Position numbers and translations under genes: made by a program
Origin: Crocinitomix algicola
GTDB taxonomy: Bacteria; Bacteroidota; Bacteroidia; Flavobacteriales_D; Crocinitomicaceae
Length of the DNA: 64,000 bases
Assembly (NCBI RefSeq): GCF_001661595.2
Contig: NZ_LYPF02000015.1
Location: 124,001 to 188,000, forward strand
Reading direction: 5' to 3'
The notes under the pieces: model-generated
What the model was told of the DNA's origin: nothing
What the model saw: the letters and a program-made list of their open reading frames with translations, nothing else
Databases searched by the model: none
In this document: piece by piece, positions 24,791 to 25,089 of the stretch
Numbering within the stretch: position 1 is the first letter of the stretch
Layout: each line of letters begins with the position of its first letter

Positions 24791-24984
24791 AGATTGAAAT
24801 GAATATAGGTTCATAAAGCATTGCGAGAGTAGCTTCCCGTACATACGGGAGTAGAGCACGCCATATAAATGGCAAGGTCGCGGATTTAGATTGAAATGAA
24901 TATAGGTTCATAAAGCATTGCGAGAGTAGCTTCCCGTACATACGGGAGTAGAGCACGCCATATAAATGGCAAGGTCGCGGATTT
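24791..24984 (+). repeat. Two identical 97-bp units containing altered tRNA-Gly copies
   Basis: Units at 24791-24887 and 24888-24984 look base-for-base identical; a third start at 24985 runs into the genuine tRNA-Gly. Each unit has the tRNA-Gly 5' end GCGAGAGTAGCT, then a hairpin TCCCGT-ACAT-ACGGGA in place of the D loop, then GTAGAGCACG, then a hairpin GCCAT-ATAA-ATGGC in place of the anticodon arm, then AAGGTCGCGG. There is no T arm or 3' acceptor strand. GCGA and TCGC could close the structure. They cannot be working tRNAs but could fold as a structured leader RNA. Confidence 0.8.
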
Positions 24985-25016
24985 AGATTGAAATGAATAT
25001 AGGTTCATAAAGTATT

Positions 25017-25089
25017 GCGAGAGTAGCTCAGTTGGTAGAGCACGACCTTGCCAAGGTCGGGGTCGCGGGTTCGAATCCCGTCTCCCGCT
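25017..25089 (+). tRNA. tRNA-Gly (anticodon GCC)
   Basis: Cloverleaf: acceptor GCGAGAG/CTCCCGC, D stem GCTC/GAGC, anticodon stem CGACC/GGTCG with loop TTGCCAA (anticodon GCC), T stem GCGGG/CCCGT with loop TTCGAAT, discriminator T. Position 4 of the acceptor is A opposite C, a mismatch; the same A is present in the two upstream altered copies. CCA is not encoded. Confidence 0.9.

Follow-up and report, generated by a model that had tools for sequence, protein, structure and literature searches.

Dead tRNA-Gly copies with palindromic loops in Crocinitomix algicola as likely remnants of a small GIY-YIG element

The window analyzed in this work is a stretch of 64,000 nucleotides of Crocinitomix algicola. 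Its tRNA-Gly/tRNA-Leu locus consists of two intact tRNA genes, which are preceded by two tandem units and followed by a terminator-like hairpin and a dead 3' copy of tRNA-Leu (Table 1). Each unit is composed of a leader copy and a dead 5' copy of tRNA-Gly. The dead tRNA-Leu copy lies behind the tRNA-Leu terminator and outside the coordinates of an earlier note on this DNA.

Table 1. Features of the tRNA-Gly/tRNA-Leu locus, in coordinates of the window
Feature	Position	Strand	Basis
TAnnTTTG box TATATTTG, 5' of units and tRNAs	24682-24689	+	Box scan of upstream regions
Unit 1: leader copy and dead 5' tRNA-Gly copy	24791-24887	+	Sequence comparison, Tandem Repeats Finder
Unit 2: identical to unit 1	24888-24984	+	Sequence comparison, Tandem Repeats Finder
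Leader copy no. 3, abutting the intact tRNA-Gly	24985-25016	+	Tandem Repeats Finder, comparison
tRNA-Gly nt 1-12 in unit	24823-24834 (unit 1), 24920-24931 (unit 2)	+	
Palindrome TCCCGTACATACGGGA in place of nt 13-18 (D loop)	24835-24850 (unit 1), 24932-24947 (unit 2)	+	
tRNA-Gly nt 19-28 in unit	24851-24860 (unit 1), 24948-24957 (unit 2)	+	
Hairpin GCCATATAAATGGC substituted for about nt 29-36 (anticodon arm, in part)	24860-24873 (unit 1), 24957-24970 (unit 2)	+	
tRNA-Gly nt 37-43 (AAGGTCG) in unit	24874-24880 (unit 1), 24971-24977 (unit 2)	+	
Intact tRNA-Gly(GCC)	25017-25090	+	ARAGORN, Rfam
Intact tRNA-Leu(TAA)	25121-25205	+	ARAGORN, Rfam
Terminator-like hairpin and T run, 3' of tRNA-Leu	25214-25245	+	Sequence read by eye
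Dead 3' tRNA-Leu copy, T loop swapped for a longer stem-loop	25335-25377	+	Sequence comparison

The earlier note had described two identical 97-bp units (24791-24984) before tRNA-Gly, and sequence comparison and Tandem Repeats Finder (period 97, 2.5 copies, 99% matches) bear this out. The third leader copy, taken together with nt 1-12 of the tRNA, matches the units at all but 1 of 44 positions. The derivation of the units from tRNA-Gly holds as well, with nt 1-12, 19-28, and 37-43 being present, and the two hairpins that had been noticed in the D-loop and anticodon-arm places are indeed found there, TCCCGTACATACGGGA standing for nt 13-18 and GCCATATAAATGGC for about nt 29-36. The units contain no complete cloverleaf: at this locus, ARAGORN and Rfam (at gathering score) give only 25017-25090 and 25121-25205, and the Rfam families above gathering score in the window are solely tRNAs, with none assigned to the units. 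A subthreshold match to the Bacteroides sRNA BTnc231 (29.2 bits, cut-off 80.4) spans 25096-25243, that is, tRNA-Leu and the terminator.

Folding agrees with the structured unit that had been proposed: 60 nt of the unit reach -21.0 kcal/mol compared with -12.5 (sd 2.6) for shuffled sequences (z -3.2), and 0 of 200 shuffles fold as well. The suggested closing stem GCGA/TCGC is predicted here but, as judged by eye, it is not kept in the short-hairpin units of the relatives L005, L139, and L185. The placement of the units in the presumed tRNA leader is supported by the upstream TAnnTTTG box, which we take to be the Bacteroidota-type -7 promoter box. Such a box occurs within 400 nt upstream of tRNA-Gly at 109 of 110 family loci compared with 13 of 110 after shuffling. 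Lying between this likely promoter and tRNA-Gly, the units would be trimmed away with the 5' leader; they are probably without function for the tRNA. The 36-letter core of the unit has no match in viral contigs, and the units have none in phages. With units and tRNA as the plasmid query, 220 records were obtained, and the 20 of these 220 that were listed all cover only the tRNA end of the query.

For comparison with relatives, tRNA-Gly(GCC) regions were taken from 111 of the 161 family genomes with the tRNA-Gly pattern; 110 were readable, and L169 was dropped, the pattern being absent at a stricter setting. At 11 of the 110 loci, an upstream 5' copy of tRNA-Gly is broken directly after nt 12, so the units of the window are not unique. 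The loose pattern matched 19 loci, from which L109, L145, L147, L153, L170, and L173 (weak matches in leader or coding sequence), L146 (a partial copy without hairpin), and L165 (bordering an N stretch) were left out. Apart from the window, the 11 loci include L005, L139, L144, and L185, whose 5' copies have TCCGCCGCGGCGGA. In L091, L093, L112, L128, and L162, the stem is another one and mostly longer; behind it come CAGGC and a strand with CTTCGC at its end, which is able to pair with the tRNA 5' end, and L127 has a 5' copy with other hairpins. The same five Gly loci share a structured 5' form with L200 (tRNA-Arg): nt 1-12, a stem TCCCGAT...ATCGGGA or variants thereof, and CAGGC, closed by a tRNA-specific strand complementary to the 5' end of the respective tRNA.

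Alignments of near relatives reveal both states of the site. A 70-bp insertion at the tRNA 5' end is present in G178 and absent from G202, and an insertion of about 71 bp in G078 and G083 is absent from G093. Hence, occupied and empty alleles of one site are observed, herein for ORF-less units and between species. The leaders are near-identical with and without the insertion, which points to sporadic insertions as opposed to a conserved leader. In the named genome collection, the pattern GAGAGTAGCTN{9,28}GTAGAGCACG matches four stretches. L082 is real and lies on the same contig as G084, and L081, L083, and L084 look like unrelated sequence. A named example of the unit is CAISOQ010000332.1, an uncultured Flavobacteriia MAG.

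These comparisons bear on the idea that the units act as a functional, structured RNA in the leader or as a mimic of a tRNA, which would regulate the processing or level of tRNA-Gly/tRNA-Leu and whose fold would be under selection. The fold exceeding that of shuffled sequences (z -3.2), the position between likely promoter and tRNA, the perfect identity of the copies, the palindromic character that is kept while the sequence changes, and the longer form at Gly and Arg, where the 5' tRNA piece is paired to a new strand complementary to it, all speak for it. Such a leader is nevertheless unlikely: it would be found at only 11 of 110 tRNA-Gly loci and be absent from close relatives with near-identical leaders, its hairpins vary between genomes, and like dead copies lie behind terminators on the 3' side of other tRNAs and have GIY-YIG genes as neighbors.

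Other tRNAs of the same genome are accompanied by similar structures. Exact self-fragments of at least 11 nt within 700 nt were found at 7 of 27 distinct tRNAs (15 fragments; 1.5 expected with the sequences of other tRNAs), of which a few are short and may be due to chance (Glu, one Met). The dead tRNA-Leu copy of the window does not enter this survey because its exact pieces are shorter than 11 nt. Upstream of tRNA-Asn, three units with an 83-bp period consist of nt 1-25, TCCCGTACCTACGGGA, and nt 36-49, the outermost one being partial. They are followed by the intact tRNA, a terminator, and a 102-aa GIY-YIG ORF. The locus further contains a dead copy whose palindrome has decayed and a second GIY-YIG copy, which is truncated. 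Similar units also occur at tRNA-Arg(TCT). A second small GIY-YIG gene lies behind tRNA-Met, where no tRNA-Met fragments are found. Both the tRNA-Asn ORF and the tRNA-Met ORF score above the PF01541 cut-off, and the YxG, R, and E positions are visible in the GIY-YIG alignment. The GIY-YIG frame continues into the dead tRNA-Asn copy (L201:1414-1722, L219), and similar C-terminal tails are seen in two genera.

The window locus itself contains no GIY-YIG ORF, and its contig gives no GIY-YIG match. A remnant is therefore claimed here, as opposed to an element, and the link of the window to GIY-YIG genes is drawn by analogy with tRNA-Asn of the same genome, which has such an ORF.

At 25277-26478 and 26671-35732, the window contains a type I restriction island together with a serine recombinase; the island has a specificity-domain ORF (26671-27234), hsdM, hsdR, an HTH/IrrE-like ORF, and a second specificity-like ORF (28720-29943). 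The recombinase beside it is apparently split, and the match to Recombinase (PF07508) comes only from the piece at 26071-26478. The earlier note had offered three guesses for the units, namely a structured RNA, a tRNA mimic, or an attachment-site relic of this neighboring island. The idea of a relic comes close, but the relic is probably not one of that island, since the island lies across tRNA-Leu and similar units accompany tRNA-Asn, tRNA-Arg(TCT), and tRNAs of other genomes, often beside GIY-YIG genes. Even with the broken recombinase (PF07508) and hsd genes within about 1-10 kb, origin from the island is therefore highly improbable. Genomic islands and integrases insert into a tRNA gene, restoring a full copy and leaving a fragment over. 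The restored full tRNA and the leftover fragment are alike herein; however, the present loci involve no integrase, tens to hundreds of base pairs, and an endonuclease gene instead of a recombinase. Furthermore, their leftovers contain hairpins, and the breaks lie in the D, anticodon, or T arm.

Within the family, GIY-YIG genes were sampled in 16 genomes (30 loci), 14 of which were chosen for fragments or palindromes and two of which are the empty-site relatives. Out of 21 loci with small ORFs, seven have an intact tRNA and three more have tRNA fragments (10/21), and the remaining 11 have no tRNA. UvrC-like or other large GIY-YIG loci have a tRNA or fragments in 0 of 9 cases. G107 is the only one of the 11 genomes having 5' copies of tRNA-Gly in which a GIY-YIG match adjoins this tRNA. 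In G107, the GIY-YIG ORF begins 3-5 nt past nt 30 (Gly) or nt 33 (Arg) of a dead copy that bears a palindrome; the intact tRNA copy comes after that ORF. G216 has a tRNA-like fragment, yet no GIY-YIG match on its contig. Searched by tblastn, one GIY-YIG protein of the window's genome has no plasmid match at 1e-8, and the G107 protein gives six weak records in phages.

The association extends to the phylum, where 84 of 198 sampled genomes match a tRNA-associated GIY-YIG protein query. The best matches of the 30 best-scoring genomes were read; these loci are not random, given this selection and a query that is itself tRNA-associated. An intact tRNA is present at 25 of these 30 loci (within 700 nt at 24), and an exact fragment of that tRNA of at least 12 nt at 24 of 30; five have no tRNA. 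The tRNA types are Asp, Ser, Ala, Val, Gly, Pro, and Asn. A degraded tRNA-Asp-like array with TCCCCAAG...CTTGGGGA palindromes surrounds two GIY-YIG copies in L216 (G093), and a like palindrome is seen in the tRNA-Asp leftovers of G051 (L203).

A 3' form of the dead copies is marked by GAGAAGTTTATNCCGA, which occurs 39 times in 21 of 240 genomes, compared with 0 for the reversed control. When 43 occurrences were read (including double counts from overlapping loci), 28 lie within 400 nt behind a tRNA. Behind 24 of these comes a piece of 12 nt or more from the 3' part of the respective tRNA, and behind four there is none; the other 15 have no tRNA in reach, some of them being at contig ends. The fragments belong to Val, Ala, Asn, Gln, Leu, Gly, Arg, and Met and are repeated in tandem up to three times. 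Mis-assembly may have affected the copy number of the units in the window, but since three-copy arrays of like kind exist at Asn in the window's own genome and at Val and Ala in other genomes, the structure itself is unlikely to be an artefact. In L261-L290, the GAGAAGTTTATNCCGA hairpin element stands before 3' tRNA fragments, with tandem arrays at Val and Ala and a tRNA-specific closing stem.

The letters just before GAGAAGTTTATNCCGA are able to pair with sequence after it, often the fragment. The best stem averages 6.4 bp over 29 elements compared with 4.5 bp after shuffling (maximum 5.55 in 1000 shuffles); because the search for it covered every position within the following 70 nt and admitted G-U pairs, it is not always formed by the tRNA piece. 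All 29 elements were kept, including L269 and L273, which are probably unrelated sequence. The same GAGAAGTTTATCCCGA element is seen in L286 and L290 (G107), in a repeat in which no tRNA was found, and the copy in L286 is closed by CAATTTGC/GCAAATTG. The 3' units at Val and Ala resemble E. coli tyrT/rtT, where tandem repeats behind a tRNA gene each contain the 3' piece of that tRNA. By contrast, the units of the window are 5' pieces before the tRNA, with palindromes that replace loops and with related GIY-YIG loci.

The first hairpin of the window, TCCCGTACATACGGGA, has 21 exact matches in 10 of 240 family genomes (two being the window's own) and 0 in the reversed control, and it occurs both in tRNA copies (Gly, Cys, Asn) and as the tip of terminators. 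Terminator-like hairpins tipped by TCCCGTACATACGGGA are seen in L036, L038, L047, and L050-L053; L047 is the terminator behind tRNA-Leu in G058. The second hairpin was rejected as a recurrent motif: GCCATATAAATGGCAAGG with at most two mismatches gives 26 matches in 240 genomes (two own) versus 29 in the reversed control.

The segments that replace tRNA sequence between the fragments of dead copies were compared over 43 loci, 13 of which were chosen for fragments or palindromes; identical segments of one tRNA type were counted once. Most of them are located at the D, anticodon, or T arm. In 38 of 48 distinct cases, the segment forms a stem of 5 bp or more, with 4.46 expected from shuffling. Such stems are found in 29 of 37 segments from the phylum loci, for whose selection hairpins played no part, and in 9 of 11 from the hand-picked loci. 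TCCC...GGGA lies inside 29 of the 48 segments and forms the exact bounds of 18. The exceptions amount to 10 segments without a 5-bp stem and 19 without TCCC...GGGA. The first hairpin of the window is a member of this TCCC...GGGA class. The claim that the new stems are not a product of ordinary point decay is upheld. For relatives, the earlier note had also considered random change without preserved pairing: the hairpin sequences do change, but most replaced segments stay palindromic.

The same counts speak against an origin without any mobile element, in which ordinary slippage and tandem duplication of the 5' half of the tRNA would be succeeded by decay, and hairpins would arise by chance from template-switch repair. 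The leader and the 5' half of the tRNA form direct repeats, L146 is a case of partial Gly duplication lacking a hairpin, and no GIY-YIG match adjoins tRNA-Gly in 10 of the 11 genomes that have 5' copies, all as such a process would have it. However, it would account poorly for the excess of stems (38/48 versus 4.46), the TCCC...GGGA shared across genera and tRNA types, the reuse of nt 12 in 11 loci, and the GIY-YIG association, and is hence rather unlikely.

A REP-like palindrome moved by a RAYT (Y1 transposase) into a duplicated tRNA half could in turn explain that TCCCGTACATACGGGA recurs in hairpin tips of several genomes. Moreover, GAGAAGTTTAT is found with at most one mismatch at 9 of 17 Y1 loci and exactly at one (L298), which is likely chance for an 11-letter word. 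Against this stands that neither an intact tRNA (0/17) nor a TCCCG/TCCGC palindrome (0/17) occurs at the Y1_Tnp loci, and that TCCCG(N6)CGGGA is found at only nine places in the 3.7-Mb genome of the window, four of them inside dead tRNA copies. With no association of Y1 transposase with palindrome or tRNA at these 17 loci, a RAYT/REP origin was rejected as very unlikely. Rickettsia palindromic elements and REP/RAYT palindromes are short dispersed palindromes; here, in contrast, the palindromes replace loop segments of dead tRNA copies.

The closest known parallel comes from phages, in which this enzyme class and its tRNA association are known. As the cited passages describe it, SegB is a free-standing GIY-YIG homing endonuclease of T-even phages (PMC13096335, PMC2988022), which adjoins tRNA genes, cuts within them with a preference for RAWTSGAAC, and drives tandem amplification of a tRNA-containing segment (PMC13096335). 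In the view given there by its authors, the repeats arise when the 5' region of the tRNA recombines with the 3' region of the ORF via microhomology, and the means by which SegB leaves its own genome unharmed are regarded as an important open question (PMC13096335). The present loci are like SegB in having a small GIY-YIG enzyme next to tRNA genes and tandem repeats. They differ in belonging to bacterial chromosomes, in involving one tRNA at a time with cutting that is presumed, and in containing displaced dead tRNA copies with palindromic loops, repeated leaders or trailers, and ORF-less remnants.

On the opposite strand, RAWTSGAAC would match the usual tRNA T loop. It is present in 13 of 33 intact tRNAs (20/33 without) and in 0 of 23 dead 3' copies. 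The intact partner has the motif in 9 of 23 cases, and all nine dead copies have lost it; only these nine are informative on motif loss because the partner is also without the motif in the other 14. In four dead copies (L308, L312, L321, L327), a T loop is retained, and it is the anticodon arm that contains the palindrome. Given these four, the 14 partners, and the 20 intact tRNAs lacking the motif, one universal cut site is not supported.

Taken together, the units of the window are likely dead, ORF-less remnants of a small selfish GIY-YIG element that breaks into tRNA genes. The endonuclease would cut inside a tRNA gene, in or near a loop. Repair would then yield an intact tRNA and, opposite it, a displaced partial copy, the ORF coming to lie between the two or next to them. 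The intact tRNA would be accompanied by a duplicated leader in the 5' type and by a duplicated trailer plus terminator in the 3' type. This arrangement is seen at other loci, and the events leading to it are presumed. In the displaced copy, loop segments have become palindromes, many of them TCCC...GGGA. These palindromes would remove the cutting site and prevent the dead copy from either adopting a tRNA fold or being cut like a tRNA, thus providing immunity. Finally, the ORF that the window's units would once have possessed may have been lost, and the unit of leader and dead half may have been multiplied by recombination between repeats, giving the 97-bp pair. This course of cutting, repair, overwriting, ORF loss, and amplification, and the homing mobility it implies, is proposed, whereas the anatomy of the loci, the GIY-YIG association, the empty sites, and the palindromic character are observed.

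More broadly, there is about an even chance that such loci represent a phylum-wide class of tRNA-regenerating selfish elements. Each would combine a GIY-YIG gene with an intact tRNA that possesses its own leader or terminator and with a displaced copy whose cut segments are overwritten by palindromes (often TCCC...GGGA), which would protect the host and mark the element. Herein, ORF-less miniatures would outnumber full elements at tRNA-Gly of this family, where a GIY-YIG match next to the gene is missing in 10 of the 11 genomes that carry 5' copies. In the literature covered (titles and abstract openings, mostly outside subscription journals and preprints), no description of chromosomal tRNA-GIY-YIG elements or of palindromes in tRNA fragments was found.

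If this holds true, highly conserved bacterial genes are repeatedly attacked and rebuilt by minimal selfish genes, which would account for the tRNA fragments and hairpins around tRNA genes. The loci would also be a natural test bed for how a cutter of essential genes avoids killing its host, with the palindrome-replaced dead copies being a testable partial answer to the question of how SegB spares itself. They further serve as a warning that structured tRNA-like leaders may be scars rather than regulators.
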